A stretch of 64,000 nt of DNA from Mesorhizobium sp. 65-26 (GTDB lineage Bacteria; Pseudomonadota; Alphaproteobacteria; Rhizobiales; Rhizobiaceae): positions 62,001-126,000 of the forward strand of contig MKVL01000001.1 in assembly GCA_001899205.1 (NCBI GenBank), read 5' to 3'. Positions 56,548 through 63,474 of the stretch are shown piece by piece. Numbering within the stretch: the stretch's first letter is position 1; the number at the start of each line of letters is the position of its first letter. The notes beneath the pieces are model-generated. The model saw only the letters and a list, made by a program, of their open reading frames with translations. It did no database searches and had not been told where the DNA came from. Made by a program: the position numbers and the translations under genes.

Positions 56548-56716
56548 GTCATTTCCTCGTAATGTAAGCCGGAATAGTTTGCGACCGGCCGCGTTTGAAA
56601 TGGTGAAGCCGTCCGTCGGATTCAAGATGGGAGCTTGCCGATGCCGGGACAGCGGGCTTTAATCGGTTGAATTTTGCGGCTCGGATCGCGTTAGCGTGTC
56701 GGGGCGTCAGGCGGGG

Positions 56717-58117
56717 ATGGGCGACATGCAGGACTACGACATGCTGGTCATCGGCAGCGGCCCTTCCGGACGCCGCGCTGCCGTCCAGTCGGCCAAGCTC
56801 GGCAAATCGGCGCTGGTCGTCGACAGGGGACGGCGACTGGGCGGTGTGTCTGTCCACACCGGTACCATCCCGTCCAAGACGTTGCGCGAGACGGTGCTCA
56901 ACCTGTCGGGCTGGCGTGAGCGCGGTTTCTATGGCCGTGGCTACCGGGTCAAGCAGGACATCTCCATCGGCGACCTCATCGAGCGCCTGCACAAGACGCT
57001 CGATCACGAGGTCGAGGTGCTGCAGCACCAGTTCATGCGCAACACGGTCAAGAGCGCGCGGGCAACCGTAAAATTCCTCGGTCCCAACAAGGCGAGCCTG
57101 ACGACCGAGGGCGGCGAATACAGCGAGGTCGGTTTCGCCAACGCGCTCATCGCCGTCGGCACCAGGCCGCACCGGCCGGCAGAGGTTCCTTTCGACAAGA
57201 CCCGCATCTTCGACAGCGACGAAATGCTGGAACTCGACCGCCTGCCACGCACCCTGACGGTGATCGGCGCCGGCGTCATCGGTGTCGAGTATGCGACCAT
57301 ATTTTCGGCGCTCGATGTTCCCGTGACGCTGGTTGAGCCGCGAAACACGATACTGGATTTCGTCGACCGCGAGATCGTCGACGACTTCATCCATCAGATG
57401 CGCGATCGCGGCATGACGATCCGGCTGGGCAGCGCGGTCAAGGAAATCGCCTCGCGGCCGGACTACGCCGAGGTGGTGCTGGCCGACGGTCGCACCATCC
57501 GTTCCGAGATGGTGCTCTACGCCGCCGGCCGCTCGGGCAATGTCGGCAGCCTTGGCCTGGAGACGGTCGGCATCGAGGTCGACGGCAGGGGGCGCCTTAA
57601 GGTCGATCCCCATACATTCCAGACCAGCGTCTCGAACATCTACGCCGCCGGCGATGTGATCGGCTTCCCCAGCCTCGCCTCGACCTCGATGGAGCAGGGC
57701 AGGGTTGCGGCCTGTCACGCATTCGGCGTGCCGCTGCCGCCGCCGCCCGAGACGTTTCCGTACGGTATCTACGCGGTGCCCGAGATCTCTACCGTCGGCC
57801 AGTCCGAGGAGCAGGTGCGCGAAAGCGGCATCGCTTATGAGGTCGGCGTCGCGCGCTTCCGCGAGACCTCGCGCGGCCACATCATGGGCGTCAGCAGCGG
57901 CTTCCTGAAGCTTCTGTTTTCGATCGAAACGCGCCGCCTGCTCGGCGCGCATATCGTCGGCGAGGGGGCTACCGAACTGATCCATATCGGCCAGGCAGTC
58001 ATCAACCTCGGCGGCACGGTCGACTTCTTCGTCAACAACACTTTCAACTATCCGACACTGGCCGAGGCCTACAAGATCGCTGGCCTGGACGCCTGGAACC
58101 GGATGGGGCAGGGGTGA
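56717..58117 (+). CDS. sthA: Soluble pyridine nucleotide transhydrogenase
   Basis: About 466 residues, an FAD flavoprotein of the disulfide-reductase superfamily. The FAD motif DMLVIGSGPSGRRAAVQSAK is followed by GVSVHTGTIPSKTLRE, where the redox Cys pair of dihydrolipoamide dehydrogenase is replaced (V and T), as in SthA/UdhA. The NAD(P) motif is VIGAGVIGVEYATIF, and the C-terminal dimer domain has GEGATELIHIGQAVI. It equilibrates NADPH and NADH in the cytoplasm. Start uncertain between 56696 (GTG), 56717 and 56726. Confidence 0.93.
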   Translation: MGDMQDYDMLVIGSGPSGRRAAVQSAKLGKSALVVDRGRRLGGVSVHTGTIPSKTLRETVLNLSGWRERGFYGRGYRVKQDISIGDLIERLHKTLDHEVEVLQHQFMRNTVKSARATVKFLGPNKASLTTEGGEYSEVGFANALIAVGTRPHRPAEVPFDKTRIFDSDEMLELDRLPRTLTVIGAGVIGVEYATIFSALDVPVTLVEPRNTILDFVDREIVDDFIHQMRDRGMTIRLGSAVKEIASRPDYAEVVLADGRTIRSEMVLYAAGRSGNVGSLGLETVGIEVDGRGRLKVDPHTFQTSVSNIYAAGDVIGFPSLASTSMEQGRVAACHAFGVPLPPPPETFPYGIYAVPEISTVGQSEEQVRESGIAYEVGVARFRETSRGHIMGVSSGFLKLLFSIETRRLLGAHIVGEGATELIHIGQAVINLGGTVDFFVNNTFNYPTLAEAYKIAGLDAWNRMGQG

Positions 58118-58992: not shown

Positions 58993-60186
58993 ATGACCAC
59001 GCCAGTTTCGCCGGAGCGCGATACCCGTATCGATGTCTTCCGGGCACTTGCTCTGCTGACGATCTACATCGACCACGTGCCGGGCACTGCGTACGAATAT
59101 CTGACCTACAGGAATTTTGGCTTTTCCGACGCGGCTGAAGCCTTTGTACTGATCTCAGGAATATCGGTTGCTCTTGCCTATGGCACCAGGTTCCAGCCTG
59201 GGGGCCGCCTGCTGTCGACGCTGAAGATGTGGCGTCGCGCCGGCGTCCTCTATGTTTCCCACATCGTCACGACGATGGCCGTCCTGGCTATCTTCTGCGC
59301 CGCCGCGGTCTTTGCCAAACGGCCGGAGCTGGCGAATTTCATTAATATGGAACCGCTGATGCGGAACACGCCGGAGACGCTGATCGGCATCGTCCTGCTC
59401 GGGCACCAGCTCGGCTACAACAACATCCTGCCGGTCTATTCCGTGCTACTGCTCATCGCGCCGATGTTCCTCCTCCTGCTCAGCGCAAACATCTGGTTGG
59501 GCCTCTCCGTTTCCGCGGCCCTGTGGTTCCTCGCCGGCCTCTACCAGGTCGCCCCGCCGAATTATCCGGAGCCGGGGTTCTGGTTCCTCAATCCGCTTTC
59601 CTGGCAATTCCTGTTCAACATCGGCCTCGCGGGCATGCTTTATGTGCGCCGAGGCGGCACCATCCCGATCAACCGCTGGCTGGTCGGCGCAGCAGCGGTT
59701 TATGTCATCGGCGCGCTGATCTGGCTGCGCACGCCGCTGTGGGGACAGGTGTCGTGGTTCGGACTGCCGGTGGTGCTGGGAGGCTTCGACAAGACATTCC
59801 TGTCGCTGCCGAGGCTCGTGCATATCCTGGCCGTCTGCTACCTGGTGATCGCCATCCCGGCAATCTCGAACGTCTTCCGCACTGCGACCGACCATCCGCT
59901 GGCCATACTTGGCAAGCGTTCGCTGCCGGTCTTCATCGCCGGCACGGTGATCGCGATGGCGGCGCAGGTAATGAAGCAGATCAATCCCGGTGGCTTCACC
60001 TATGACAGCCTTCTCATCGCCGCCGGCATCGCCATGCAGTTCGCGCTCGCCTACTACCTTGAGTGGCTTGCCATCATGGGGTGGAGCGGGAAGGGAAAGC
60101 CGGTGCGCAAGATCCGGCCTGTGGAGGCTCAGGCGGTCAAGCCTTCGCTGGGCACGATCCCGCTGTTGACCGGCGCGGGGCGTTAG
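58993..60186 (+). CDS. opgC: OpgC domain protein (osmoregulated periplasmic glucan succinyltransferase-like)
   Basis: A 397-residue integral membrane acyltransferase-like protein with about ten segments and the OpgC signature in RIDVFRALALLTIYIDHVPG and RNFGFSDAAEAFVLISGISVALAYG. OpgC succinylates the periplasmic glucans important for osmotic adaptation and, in rhizobia, host interaction. Other members modify other glycans, so the precise acceptor is inferred. Complete; the C-terminal 40 residues are a soluble tail (RKIRPVEAQAVKPS). Confidence 0.87.
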   Translation: MTTPVSPERDTRIDVFRALALLTIYIDHVPGTAYEYLTYRNFGFSDAAEAFVLISGISVALAYGTRFQPGGRLLSTLKMWRRAGVLYVSHIVTTMAVLAIFCAAAVFAKRPELANFINMEPLMRNTPETLIGIVLLGHQLGYNNILPVYSVLLLIAPMFLLLLSANIWLGLSVSAALWFLAGLYQVAPPNYPEPGFWFLNPLSWQFLFNIGLAGMLYVRRGGTIPINRWLVGAAAVYVIGALIWLRTPLWGQVSWFGLPVVLGGFDKTFLSLPRLVHILAVCYLVIAIPAISNVFRTATDHPLAILGKRSLPVFIAGTVIAMAAQVMKQINPGGFTYDSLLIAAGIAMQFALAYYLEWLAIMGWSGKGKPVRKIRPVEAQAVKPSLGTIPLLTGAGR

Positions 60187-60214
60187 GGCGACGAGGCGGT
60201 CGCGGTGCTGGAAA

Positions 60215-61294
60215 TTATCCGGCCCGCGGGGCCTCGGAAGACGCCCTGACGATCAGATCGACGCCGAGTGTCTCGCGGCGAACCTGCCCGTCGAAATCGA
60301 GGATCGTCCTTGCCGCACGCCGGCCGATCTCGGCAATCGGCTGGGCGATCGTCGTGAGCGGCGGGCGCGACAGCGCCGCTTCGGGCACGCCGTCGAAACC
60401 GACCACCGAAACGTCGCCTGGGACATCGAGGCCGCGCTCGCGCAGCCAGTCCAGGGCGACCAGCGCCATGCGATCGGACATGGCGAGGATCGCCGTCGGC
60501 GGCGTCGGGGTCGCGAAGATCGTCTCGAGGCCGGCCCTGGTGGTGATCTCGTCATTGGCGGTCTCGAAGACCGGGATGGTGGCCGTATCGACACCGTGCC
60601 GCGACAGTTCATCGAAATAGCCGGCAAGGCGATCCCGCGTGCCTGTATAGACCGCCGCCTTGACCTGCTCCTCCGAGACGAGGCCGGTGCTCTCGTCGGC
60701 GAACTGCAGGGCCAGCACGGCGAAGCGGCGATGACCGAGGACTGCCAGATGGCGCGCGGCGAGCTTCGCGCCCGCTACGTTGTCGACGCCAATGGCCGAG
60801 ACCGTTTCGTCGCGAAATCCCAGTTCGAGCGCCACGAAAGGCAGCCTGCGCTCGCGCGTCAGTTCGACGAGGCGAAAGCCGCCTTCGATGCAGAACAGGA
60901 TGAAACCGTCGACCAGCGCGCTCTGGATGTTCCAGGCGAGCTTTTCCTCATTGCCCGCCGAGACCAGCGCGATGCCGGCGCCGGTGGCGTCACAGGCCTC
61001 GGAGATGCCGGCCATCATCGCGCGGGCGAAAGGGTCCTCGAAGAAATAGGAGAGGGGCTCTGTCGTGGCGACGCCGATGGCATTGACCTTGCCGGCGCGC
61101 AGGAGACGCCCTTTCGGGTCGGGGCCTGCGTAGCCGAGGGCTTCCGCGACCGCGCGCACGCGCTCACGGACTTCCTCGCGCACGATCTCAGGGCGGGCGA
61201 AGACGTTGGAAGCGGTGCCGTGCGAAACCCCGGCCGCCTTGGCGATATCGGCCAGCCTCACCGGCCGTGTCTTCCCCTCGATTGAAAGCGCCAT
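60215..61294 (-). CDS. LacI family transcriptional regulator
   Basis: A 359-residue LacI/GalR regulator: HTH and hinge at the N-terminus (RLADIAKAAGVSHGTASNVFARPEIVREEVRERV, residues about 13-50), then a periplasmic-binding-like effector domain (VNAIGVATTEPLSYFFEDPFARAMMAG, DGFILFCIEGG, AILAMSDRMALVALDWLRERG, VSVVGFDGVPEAALSRPPLTTIAQP). The ATG at 61294 is seven bases after GGAGG. It is divergent from two small genes, and palindromic sites TTGGATCGATTCAA lie 36-50 bp upstream of it and ahead of each small gene. The effector is unknown; no sugar-use genes are adjacent. Confidence 0.9.
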   Translation of the reverse strand: MALSIEGKTRPVRLADIAKAAGVSHGTASNVFARPEIVREEVRERVRAVAEALGYAGPDPKGRLLRAGKVNAIGVATTEPLSYFFEDPFARAMMAGISEACDATGAGIALVSAGNEEKLAWNIQSALVDGFILFCIEGGFRLVELTRERRLPFVALELGFRDETVSAIGVDNVAGAKLAARHLAVLGHRRFAVLALQFADESTGLVSEEQVKAAVYTGTRDRLAGYFDELSRHGVDTATIPVFETANDEITTRAGLETIFATPTPPTAILAMSDRMALVALDWLRERGLDVPGDVSVVGFDGVPEAALSRPPLTTIAQPIAEIGRRAARTILDFDGQVRRETLGVDLIVRASSEAPRAG

Positions 61295-61329
61295 TCCATA
61301 TCCTCCGGGCCTTTCAGGTAGCATCTTCC

Positions 61330-61343
61330 TTGGATCGATTCAA
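61330..61343. promoter_or_regulatory. LacI-type operator, copy 1
   Basis: TTGGATCGATTCAA, a near-perfect 14-bp palindrome with the central CG expected of LacI-family sites, 36 bp upstream of the LacI start. Its reverse complement is identical to copy 2 50 bp away, a spacing compatible with looping. Confidence 0.75.
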
Positions 61344-61379
61344 ATTTTTGCTTGATCGCAAGTGCGGGTCCGATTAGGA

Positions 61380-61393
61380 TTGAATCGATCCAA
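61380..61393. promoter_or_regulatory. LacI-type operator, copy 2
   Basis: TTGAATCGATCCAA, the exact reverse complement of copy 1. It lies 33 bp before the start codon of the 47-residue protein gene, where it would block the plus-strand promoter. Confidence 0.75.
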
Positions 61394-61426
61394 TTTCAGG
61401 GATCGTATTCGAGCAAGGAGGGAGCC

Positions 61427-61570
61427 ATGCATCCCGTCAACTTTCTGTTCGAGGATATTTATCGCAGCGACTGGGCCATCCGATCGCAGGCGAAGACCGA
61501 GGCCAGGCGGGGCCGGCATGGCCCCTGGGCGCGCGACCCACGCCTGCTTGTGGAGCGCAAGCGCGCCTGA
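61427..61570 (+). CDS. 47-residue protein of unknown function, paralogue A
   Basis: Starts at ATG 61427 behind AAGGAGGGAG, a strong ribosome binding site. The first 13 residues MHPVNFLFEDIYR are almost the same as those of the next small gene (MHPVGFLFEDIYR). The rest is polar and Arg-rich (EARRGRHGPWARDPRLL). No signal peptide or membrane segment. I do not recognise the family. Two similar genes in a row, each with its own operator, argue strongly that both are real and regulated. Confidence 0.75.
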   Translation: MHPVNFLFEDIYRSDWAIRSQAKTEARRGRHGPWARDPRLLVERKRA

Positions 61571-61585
61571 GCGGGCGCCGTTTTT
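61563..61585 (+). terminator. Terminator overlapping the end of paralogue A
   Basis: GCGCC (61563-61567) pairs with GGCGC (61574-61578) and is followed by CG and TTTTT at 61581-61585. It would end the paralogue A transcript before the operator and gene of paralogue B. Confidence 0.5.
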
Positions 61586-61597
61586 CGCGTCTTGGGA

Positions 61598-61611
61598 TTG
61601 GATCGATTCAA
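61598..61611. promoter_or_regulatory. LacI-type operator, copy 3
   Basis: TTGGATCGATTCAA, identical to copy 1, ends 20 bp before the start codon of paralogue B. It falls between the two small genes, after the putative terminator of the first. Confidence 0.75.
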
Positions 61612-61631
61612 AGCATATCACGAGGTCTGTC

Positions 61632-61781
61632 ATGCATCCCGTTGGCTTTCTGTTCGAAGACATCTATCGCAACTACTGGGGCATCTCGCCCGCCACCGAA
61701 AATCCGGAGGCGAGGCGGCTGAGGAAGCCGGCCTTGCGCGAACGCGAATTCCTTGCCCGTCGCGAACGGCGGAGAGGCTGA
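61632..61781 (+). CDS. 49-residue protein of unknown function, paralogue B
   Basis: ATG 61632, with GAGG upstream. The N-terminus MHPVGFLFEDIYR is shared with paralogue A; the remainder is again basic (RRLRKPALREREFLARRERR) with a proline/asparagine-rich middle (GISPATENPEAR). Unrecognised family. It follows the third operator and looks like a separately controlled copy. The remaining sequence to the convergent DUF423 gene is only 25 bp. Confidence 0.75.
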   Translation: MHPVGFLFEDIYRNYWGISPATENPEARRLRKPALREREFLARRERRRG

Positions 61782-61806
61782 CCCCGCAAGGCCTATCGAT
61801 GCAAGG

Positions 61807-62181
61807 TCAGGACCGCTGACGCGCAACCGCCGACGCGGCGATCGCCAGCCAGCCGACGATGAGCAGGGTGCCGCCGATCGGCGCCGACATCGGAAAGAGC
61901 CGCGAGCCGAGAAAGTCACGGGCGAGCAGGTCGCCGCAAAACAGCAGCAGACCGACGAGCAACACGACAGCACCCGTTCGCAACACCCGGTTCACCGCCA
62001 GCAGGCCGGCAGCGAGGAACACCGGCGCGTGCATCAGCAGGAATGAGGCGGCCGTGCCGGTGAACGCGCCGCCGCGATGCGCGGCCGCCGCCGATAACGC
62101 CACGCCGGCGGCGCCGCAAAGGCCGGCCATGAGCACGAGGAAGCGGCTGCCGCCGGTCGGCGATTGTTCGGCGAGGCTCAT
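61807..62181 (-). CDS. DUF423 family membrane protein
   Basis: A 124-residue protein with four hydrophobic segments and the DUF423 (YgdD) pattern GLCGAAGVALSAAAAHRG, FLLMHAPVFLAAGLLAV, VLLVGLLLFCGDLLARDFLG and FPMSAPIGGTLLIVGWLAIA. Function unknown. It is 39 bp upstream of the MFS gene's stop on the same strand. Confidence 0.9.
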   Translation of the reverse strand: MSLAEQSPTGGSRFLVLMAGLCGAAGVALSAAAAHRGGAFTGTAASFLLMHAPVFLAAGLLAVNRVLRTGAVVLLVGLLLFCGDLLARDFLGSRLFPMSAPIGGTLLIVGWLAIAASAVARQRS

Positions 62182-62220
62182 TCGGAGGGCTCCATGCTTC
62201 GTTCTCCGGTTTGCCCGCTA

Positions 62221-63474
62221 TCAGGGTTCGCCGGCTTCCAGCAGCATATGCCGTGTCCGACGCGTCTGAACAATCCAGTTATACGCCGCGCCCAGCGCCA
62301 TCAGCACGGACGTGCCGAGAAACACCGCGCGCATGCCGAAATGTCCGCCGACGAAACCGCCCGAGAGTGGCCCCAGCACCTGGCCGGCATACTGCGCCGA
62401 GATCGCCAGTCCCAGCACATTGCCGCCCACGCCGTCCGGGACATTGTGGCGGATGACGCTCGTGATGCAGGGCAGCAGGCCGCCGAGTGCCAGTCCCATC
62501 AGGAACCGCAGGCCGATGAGCTGCCAGCCTTCGGTGACGAAAGCCTGCGGGATGAGCAGCAGCGCCGAGACCGCCAGCGCTCCGATAACCACATTCCAGT
62601 GCCCGACGCGGTCGGCCAGCTTGCCGAGATGCGAGGCTGACAGGATGGCGCCGAGGGCCGCGGCCGACATGACGATGCCCGATACCATGGTCACCCGGCT
62701 CTGGTCCTCGATCAGTTGCTGGACATAGACCGTGATGATCGGCTCGATCGACATGGTGGCGAATGCGAGCAGCATGCCGGTCGTCAGCATGGCCACCACA
62801 GGCCGCTTGTCGGGGATCTGAGACCAGCCGCTTTTCGGTTTTCCCGCCGGATTGCTCTTTGCCGCCGTCGACCGCGGGTTTTCCTTGATCAGGAAGGTTG
62901 TCGCCAGGAAGGCCAGGAAGATGACGCCGCCCGACAGCAGGAAGGTGGCGCGGATGCCGATGATCGGGGGCAGCGCGCCGCCGAGCAGGGGGCCGACCAG
63001 CGAACCGGCGGTGATGCCAGCCGACAAAACGCCGAGCGCCCAGCCGGAGCGCTCCTTCGGCGTCTGCATGGCGACCAGGATGGTCGAACCCGAGGAGTAG
63101 CCGCCGGCAAAGCCGATCAACAGCCGCAACAGCACCAGTTGCCAGACCGATTGCACCATGCCGGTCAGCGACATGCAGATCGCCATGCCGAAGCTGGCGC
63201 GCACCAGCATCAGCTTGCGGCCGTAGCGGTCGCCCAGCCGCCCCCAAAGCGGCGCGACCAGCGCCGCGGCGAAGAAGGTCGCGCCGTAGGCGATGCCGGA
63301 CCATTGCACGATCGCCGCGTGGCCTTCGGCGCCGAGCTGTTCGACGTAGAGCGGCAGGAACGGCAGCAGCAGCGTCATGGCAATGAGGGTGCTGAACGAG
63401 CCGGCGAAGCAGACGGCGAGATTGCGCCGCCAATGGATATTGTAGCCGCTCTGTTCCGTGCCGTCCTGTGTCAT
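62221..63474 (-). CDS. MFS transporter (multidrug-type, DHA1-like)
   Basis: A 417-residue major facilitator with about 12 segments: LLPFLPLYVEQLGAEG, loop LWGRLGDRYGRKLMLVRA (motif A), GFAGGYSSGSTILVAMQTPKERSGWALG, a central loop (RSTAAKSNPAGKPKSG) and a second half with SHLGKLADRVGHWNVVI. Start at ATG 63474; an upstream ATG at 63543 lies inside the operator repeats. It is divergent from a GntR gene and probably under its control. Confidence 0.88.
   Translation of the reverse strand: MTQDGTEQSGYNIHWRRNLAVCFAGSFSTLIAMTLLLPFLPLYVEQLGAEGHAAIVQWSGIAYGATFFAAALVAPLWGRLGDRYGRKLMLVRASFGMAICMSLTGMVQSVWQLVLLRLLIGFAGGYSSGSTILVAMQTPKERSGWALGVLSAGITAGSLVGPLLGGALPPIIGIRATFLLSGGVIFLAFLATTFLIKENPRSTAAKSNPAGKPKSGWSQIPDKRPVVAMLTTGMLLAFATMSIEPIITVYVQQLIEDQSRVTMVSGIVMSAAALGAILSASHLGKLADRVGHWNVVIGALAVSALLLIPQAFVTEGWQLIGLRFLMGLALGGLLPCITSVIRHNVPDGVGGNVLGLAISAQYAGQVLGPLSGGFVGGHFGMRAVFLGTSVLMALGAAYNWIVQTRRTRHMLLEAGEP

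Follow-up and report, generated by a model that had tools for sequence, protein, structure and literature searches.

A LacI-family repressor with two arginine-rich microproteins as candidate output in Mesorhizobium

Introduction

Small proteins are common and mostly unexplained for want of context. An example in which they are the key targets of a transcription factor is given by VtlR of Brucella and Agrobacterium, a LysR-type regulator that acts on DUF1127 small proteins linked to sugar use.

Of the LacI-family regulators covered in the relevant passages of a survey, nearly 90% control sugar utilisation pathways as local regulators (Ravcheev et al. 2014, PMC4052901), with operators that form an even palindrome with a central CG (PMC4052901). 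The same passages describe PckR as a global LacI-family regulator of central carbon metabolism in the Rhizobiales, whose regulons comprise 14-28 genes for three of the four families covered, and contain no description of a microprotein output for LacI regulators (PMC4052901). DUF1127 proteins (PF06568), of which the Agrobacterium SDPs and Rhodobacter CcaF1 are examples, are described in passages of a further paper as binding RNA (CcaF1) or sensor kinases (PhoR, SsrA) and as influencing carbon and phosphate metabolism, in Brucella fucose utilisation (PMC12501420). Among the matches listed for the open-licence literature in PMC, none dealt with the LacI regulator described here, its microproteins or a link between LacI and DUF1127; a single listed paper (PMC11089165) contains both DUF1127 and LacI.

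Results

The lacI gene and its three operators

The locus lies in the window, by which we mean the whole analysed stretch of 64,000 nucleotides from Mesorhizobium sp. 65-26, and comprises the following features:

60215..61294, minus strand: LacI-family repressor gene, probable start at 61294 (the longest ORF starts at 61324)
61315..61320, minus strand: possible lacI -10 element TACCTG, read from the sequence, with the presumed -35 element TTGAAT inside operator 1
61330..61343, no strand: operator 1, exact motif, overlapping the presumed lacI -35 element, 5 bp before the longest LacI ORF
61352..61357, plus strand: -35-like TTGATC of the putative A promoter, placed where 49 of 51 loci have TTGAC
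61375..61380, plus strand: -10-like TAGGAT, with a 17-bp spacer to the -35-like hexamer, in contact with operator 2 and in the same relative place as at other loci
61380..61393, no strand: operator 2, exact motif, 50 bp from operator 1 and 33 bp before the ATG of A
61427..61570, plus strand: microprotein A, 47 aa, 19% Arg, pI 11.2, assessed by dN/dS
61598..61611, no strand: operator 3, exact motif, 20 bp before the ATG of B
61632..61781, plus strand: microprotein B, 49 aa, 22% Arg, pI 11.1, assessed by dN/dS

The repressor is a typical member of the LacI family. It has a LacI HTH domain (PF00356, 41.9 bits, cut-off 27) and a Peripla_BP_3 sensor domain (PF13377, 111.8 bits, cut-off 26.5), and among solved structures it is best matched by 3h5t, a LacI-family regulator, with 157.5 bits. 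The gene probably starts at 61294 (MALSIEG..., 359 aa) and not at 61324, since the presumed promoter would overlap an ORF begun at the latter position. A generic promoter scan of the region gave no promoter-like site on either strand. No relative of this LacI was detected at E<=1e-60 in the plasmid collection.

The 14-bp sequence TTGGATCGATTCAA, an even palindrome with a central CG close to its own lacI gene, is present exactly or as the reverse complement at 61330-61343, 61380-61393 and 61598-61611. The motif search of the window thereby recovered, to the base, the three identical sites at 61330, 61380 and 61598 that the initial annotation had listed, together with its gaps of 33 bp to the ATG of A and 20 bp to that of B. 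Throughout the genome (6,840,467 bases in 42 contigs) the pattern TTGRATCGATYCAA has three sites at 0 mismatches, all of them at the lacI locus, and the looser TTGRAHCGDTYCAA at 0 mismatches likewise yields three sites there, while the reversed control pattern has 0 sites in the 6,840,467 bases. When up to three mismatches are allowed, seven matches are found in the window against a shuffled mean of 4.64, and because 21 of 100 shuffles reach seven, such loose matches are uninformative. A TTGRATCGATYCAA-matching site precedes B in 31 of 31 locus copies inspected, and three such sites are present in 30 of the 31 other Mesorhizobium loci of the A/B type, the remaining one (L027) having two.

Coding evidence for microproteins A and B

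A and B share 43% identity, and the motif MHPV-x-FLFEDIYR is identical in both, which agrees with their initial description as paralogues. The window and 31 Mesorhizobium loci of the A/B type together provide 32 locus copies, among which B is present in 32 and A, by search pattern, in 31; the DNA of the copy missed by the A pattern (L058) reads MHLV instead of MHPV. Using these copies, and leaving out pairs that were identical, of unequal length, with dN <0 or with dS outside 0-2.5, the median dN/dS of A is 0.071 for the N-terminus, 0.403 for the tail and 0.248 for the whole, and that of B is 0.075 for the N-terminus and 0.145 for codons 2-28. Read in frames +1 and +2, dN/dS rises to 1.10 and 1.52 for codons 2-45 of A, and to 1.97 and 1.20 for codons 2-27 of B. 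A substitution pattern of the noncoding type, which had been named as an argument against the two ORFs, was thus not found, with about 0.07 in the N-terminal part in frame versus 1.10-1.97 out of frame. As the N-terminal dN/dS is low and variation there is concentrated at third codon positions (0.21 versus 0.03-0.08 at positions 1 and 2), the first 16 residues or so are the most strictly kept part. Judged by these substitutions, A and B look like real genes under purifying selection.

The same variation bears on the idea that the transcript is the active part, i.e. that the operators control an RNA regulator in the form of a dual-function small RNA which also encodes a peptide, like the carbon-linked SgrS/SgrT. 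Although a short transcript unit under its own repressor and this carbon-linked precedent would suit such an RNA, we regard it as very improbable: the high variation at third positions indicates that the N-terminal part is conserved only at the amino acid level, and a search of positions 60000-62500 against Rfam revealed no known RNA at E<=1.

The family to which A and B belong has the signature M-[HI]-P-x-x-Y-L-F-x-D-x-Y-R. Neither A nor B has a match in Pfam or NCBIfam at E<=1 or in PHROGs, and seven further members have no match in Pfam, so that the initial view of proteins with no recognisable family stands: the MIP/MHP microprotein family is absent from Pfam, NCBIfam and PHROGs, the libraries searched. 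The predicted structure of A is helical with low confidence (mean pLDDT 60.3).

Occurrence together with LacI

A pattern-based scan of 84,980 named species, each represented by one genome, led to 52 relatives of the LacI, and a microprotein was found at 49 of these loci. The three loci without it are L035, L046 and L062; at L035 LacI is kept, with no microprotein and no operators seen. Within the genus, 135 of 146 genomes carry both LacI and the microprotein, one (G592) carries LacI only, none the microprotein only, and ten carry neither (Fisher p 1.2e-14 for presence per genome, a value that ignores relatedness). LacI is thus present in 136 genomes, in one of which (G715) the match holds one stop codon, and among the 135 carriers of the microprotein 120 have two matches and 15 have one. 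The question of co-occurrence raised at the outset is therefore answered by 135 genomes with both and 0 with the microprotein alone, and a lack of conservation in relatives, named beforehand as a reason for doubt, was not observed, since 135 of 146 genus genomes carry the family.

Beyond the genus, 297 genomes drawn evenly from the order were searched with a 21-position microprotein profile and, for LacI, at E<=1e-75. This gave LacI in 33 genomes and 20 profile matches, 19 of them genuine, and all 19 microproteins lie on the same contig as the LacI match and within about 300 bases of it. The twentieth match (G133, 19.9 bits) was rejected as a chance frame, an Arg-rich stretch unlike the family. 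In a draw of 289 genomes of the class, a microprotein at E<=0.001 was found only in the window's own genome. An orthologous LacI divergent from a single microprotein ORF also occurs in Devosia, Labrys, Kaistia, Bosea and a strain labelled Mesorhizobium BR1-1-16. These ORFs outside the A/B type encode 57-85 aa (42 in L061) and begin with MIPASYLFKDVYRQHW or similar.

A tree was built from 43 LacI proteins, for which rows of <=240 residues were dropped and 10 of the 32 A/B rows were kept. The LacIs with a microprotein are spread through a supported clade of 36 (100/99), in which the A/B rows form one group (1 change, support 83/66), and one MHP-type match each is found in the sister genomes G248 and G265. 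Since the A/B rows group together and these sisters have only a single match, the A/B pair looks like a duplication within the genus. Altogether, the comparison supports the view of a conserved unit made up of LacI, the operators and the two microprotein paralogues.

Some observations concern the labels and surroundings of these loci. L061, assigned to an Opitutus sp. MAG (JANPZY010000001.1), has a Devosia-like LacI-microprotein module and is probably a mis-binned or mislabelled contig. The species label of L053 (Mesorhizobium sp. BR1-1-16) is doubtful, as its LacI groups with that of Kaistia soli and its neighbourhood resembles L055. By eye, LacI has a ThiF/MoeB-like gene next to it or close by at L051, L053, L055, L060, L120, L121 and L125, with a Fur-like gene nearby at some of these loci, a neighbourhood not seen at the Mesorhizobium locus L012. 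A Si-specific NAD(P)(+) transhydrogenase (635 bits, cut-off 465) is encoded at positions 56711-58114 of the window, a few genes from the switch.

Promoter-like element between the operators and the A-B spacer

At least two sites of a somewhat looser operator pattern are present at 57 of 61 LacI loci, and in 51 of these 57 the pair nearest lacI is 47-50 bp apart. Between the paired operators, reading away from lacI, TTGAC is found at 49 of the 51, the exceptions being the window and L037, and 47 of the 51 agree with a loose -35/-10 pattern that extends to the second operator. The corresponding element of the window, TTGATC-17 bp-TAGGAT, was missed by the generic promoter scan. To judge from this layout, the operator pair is the anatomy of a repressor that would close two divergent promoters at once.

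Beside operator 3, a separate promoter for B could not be recognised. The initial annotation had placed a terminator-like hairpin between A and B, but this could not be upheld, because one hairpin was found where 0.7 are expected in shuffles of the region. Moreover, the fold z-score is -0.31, and the consensus fold of 31 aligned copies reaches -0.95 kcal/mol, which is also attained by 16 of 200 column shuffles. Given that operator 3 comes with no recognisable promoter and that the A-B spacer shows no terminator beyond chance expectation, transcription from the A promoter may extend into B, and operator 3 may act as a roadblock.

The spacer is also the place where A and B could be taken for leader peptides or remnants, so that translation of A would decide on read-through into B or genes further downstream, whereas the peptides would have no function of their own. 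The ORFs are indeed very short, their C-terminal tails vary (dN/dS of 0.40 for the tail of A), and a run of at least four T follows A in 27 of 31 copies. However, strong purifying selection acts on the N-terminal residues, and those of other genera, in which a single copy was found, are similar; there is neither a stable hairpin nor an Rfam match, and the next recognised gene past B, a DUF423 gene at 61807-62181, lies on the opposite strand. With no terminator hairpin and no controlled downstream gene, the locus was not assigned to the leader peptide/attenuator class, and we consider this explanation to be highly doubtful.

Other proteins in the divergent slot

Within the clade of 36, at L046, L119 and L124 (support 98/99) as well as at L123, a different small protein occupies the divergent slot next to the same type of operator. 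Those of L046 and L124 match DUF1127 above the Pfam cut-off of 23.3 (26.2 and 24.3 bits), that of L123 remains below it with 19.7 bits, and that of L119 has no DUF1127 match, yet it aligns with the proteins of L046, L123 and L124. Two further unrelated small ORFs, which are candidate genes, fill the slot at L120 and L125, and in Pelagibacterium (L062) the divergent gene codes for an MFS transporter and is accompanied by two operators. Among the order genomes, 14 have LacI with no microprotein match, and eleven of these were inspected (all except G228, G260 and G292): five (G127, G158, G202, G155, G261) have one of these alternative small ORFs in the slot, one (G182) has two operators and no clear slot protein, and G010, G203, G243, G223 and G180 have neither an operator pair nor a clear slot protein. 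The latter also applies to the outgroup clade, where four of five tree loci (L116, L118, L121, L122) have neither operators near lacI nor a clear slot protein.

An assignment of A and B themselves to DUF1127 (PF06568) was rejected, as A, B and the seven other family members have no Pfam match, and so was homology of the MIP/MHP family to DUF1127, because hhalign gave a probability of 0.1% against the four DUF1127-type slot proteins.

The exchange of proteins in the slot also bears on a possible feedback, in which the microprotein would act back on LacI as a co-regulator or anti-repressor and for this reason would never be found without LacI. The strict co-occurrence in the genomes examined speaks for such a role; tight linkage alone, however, explains it as well, a specific contact would not easily allow unrelated slot proteins beside the same LacI, and four of the five outgroup tree loci lack operators near lacI and a clear slot protein. 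We therefore judge feedback on LacI to be unlikely.

Further candidate targets

With a looser pattern, 71 sites were found in 24 genomes compared to 6 for the reversed control, 53 of them at the LacI locus and 18 elsewhere (hand count). Eight of the 18 are of the TTGGAACG(T/A)TCCAA type, probably represent another motif and were excluded as targets. The remaining ten correspond to about five independent cases, as they come from two pairs of close relatives. Perfect sites precede a ThuA gene in G225, G130, G265 and G248; furthermore, off-locus sites are located before an MFS gene and a PQ-loop/SWEET-type gene in G265 and G248, and before an aldo/keto reductase gene in G225 and G130. Pfam, applied to one member each, identified MFS_1, ThuA and Aldo_ket_red, with GFO_IDH_MocA for the gene after ThuA, and the PQ-loop target matches PQ-loop with 29.4 bits (cut-off 22) and MtN3_slv with 21.9, just under its 23.7. 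Palindromes of the TTGGAACGTTCCAA type, which are probably operators of a different regulator, form clusters of four within 13.2 kb (G293:C8:37023-50203) and of two within 11.8 kb (G155:C19:69799-81540).

In the window's own genome, the one-mismatch site TTGAATCGATCTAA is located 52 bp before the orthologous distant MFS transporter gene. A target scan with a weight matrix built only from LacI-locus operators placed this site 49-53 bp before the gene in all eight same-genus genomes tested, found none for seven more distant MFS matches, and found perfect sites before 4 of 26 ThuA matches; before the ThuA gene of the own genome (L156) no site was found, and its regulation by this LacI was dismissed. 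All 14 bases of the MFS site are invariant in the eight genomes, compared to 2 of 60 and 3 of 66 in the flanks (ungapped). The sharpness of this footprint depends on the two more distant genomes, as in the six closest genomes the invariant flanking bases are 10 of 60 upstream, 12 of the 20 that directly follow the site and 1 of the 46 after those. The site is asymmetric, and it could belong to a paralogous LacI. The MFS transporter beside LacI in Pelagibacterium is 52% identical to the site-bearing one of Mesorhizobium, so that two lines, the conserved upstream site and the divergent homologue in Pelagibacterium, tie the same transporter to LacI. A role like that of SgrT, with a small protein that binds and blocks a co-regulated sugar transporter, would have a candidate partner in the MFS transporter of Mesorhizobium, but no MFS match at E<=1e-60 was obtained in 10 of 25 genomes tested.

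Two other one-mismatch sites of the own genome may be mentioned. One, TTGAATCGATCCAT (G000:C35:81990-82003; L137:1991), is followed after 12 bp by the likely ATG of another MFS gene, whose ORF matches MFS_1 with 156 bits and Sugar_tr with 29 bits in Pfam; the other, on C38, is apparently inside a coding region.

The initial annotation had noted that no metabolic genes are adjacent. The idea of a LacI with no transporter or metabolic targets is not supported, given the conserved site before the distant MFS gene in the own genome and the perfect sites before ThuA, PQ-loop and aldo/keto reductase genes in relatives, and the regulon seems larger than had been thought. Its proposal that the microproteins are the regulated output holds insofar as they belong to a conserved unit and are the most constant target seen for this LacI, perhaps its main output.

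Discussion

Proposed mechanism

We consider it likely that the locus is an autoregulated divergent LacI switch with a sugar-like inducer and with the two microproteins and, in Mesorhizobium, a distant MFS transporter as outputs. A dimer of the LacI-family repressor would bind two operators about 49 bp apart that bracket the microprotein promoter, one touching the microprotein -10/start region and the other overlapping the presumed lacI -35 element, and would so shut off its own gene and the microprotein together. Operator 3 would block the second copy, B, which is probably on the same transcript as A. A small, probably sugar-like ligand would then release the repressor, leading to a burst of two Arg-rich microproteins, plus one distant MFS transporter in Mesorhizobium. 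The microproteins could act in the manner of DUF1127 small proteins, through contact with RNA or with a protein partner, and retune carbon metabolism post-transcriptionally.

Comparison of the loci brings out the apparently coding nature of A and B, the operators with their spacing, the promoter-like element in relatives, the co-occurrence with LacI and the conserved MFS site; what we infer is the binding of the sites by this LacI, the repression and the response to a sugar. LacI-family regulators take a sugar or a nucleoside as effector, and the extra candidate targets (MFS, ThuA, PQ-loop, aldo/keto reductase) would, indirectly, suit a sugar-like signal. The least certain step is the post-transcriptional role of the microproteins, which is drawn by analogy; a similar role is taken as the most likely one because DUF1127 proteins stand in for the microproteins.

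A wider reading, which we put forward tentatively and hold to be possible rather than probable, is that the conserved purpose of this LacI across several families of the Hyphomicrobiales is the release of a microprotein and not of a catabolic pathway, that the slot has been refilled by unrelated, interchangeable effectors, and that MIP/MHP constitutes a new class of regulatory microproteins in bacteria. If this is true, MIP/MHP, DUF1127 and at least two other slot proteins could replace one another in passing on a carbon signal at the post-transcriptional level.

Comparison with known systems

Compared to the local LacI regulators of sugar utilisation, as far as they are described in the passages of PMC4052901, the locus shares the central-CG palindrome, the site at its own gene, the divergent target and the tandem operators, and a sugar regulon would also accommodate its off-locus sites upstream of genes for transporters, ThuA, PQ-loop proteins and reductases. 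It differs from them in that the constant target is a microprotein, accompanied by few scattered extra targets. With PckR it has the LacI family and the bacterial order in common, but the regulon size sets both apart, since the three exact sites found here are all at the lacI locus. A global regulator of the PckR type was taken to have more than 15 targets in at least seven operons, and as the strong sites amount to three exact ones at one locus and one conserved one-mismatch MFS site, this LacI is not counted among them.

Like A and B, DUF1127 proteins are small, Arg-rich and predicted to be helical (the model of A being of low confidence), and they occupy the slot beside the same LacI in relatives of the A/B loci. 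In contrast to them, neither A and B nor the MIP-type proteins tested match a Pfam model, and the profile comparison gave a probability of 0.1%. The likeness to VtlR is that of a transcription factor with small proteins as main output; VtlR is, however, of the LysR and not of the LacI type, and its small proteins are DUF1127 proteins.

The LacI itself is thus of a known kind, and new are the microprotein family, the operator pair around the promoter and the exchangeable microprotein output, which suggests that LacI repressors can be built around such an output. Here, a family absent from the libraries searched comes with a linked repressor, a clear operator and indirect clues to a sugar-type signal, and its natural replacement by DUF1127 proteins, for which binding partners have been published, makes the function of both kinds of protein testable together.
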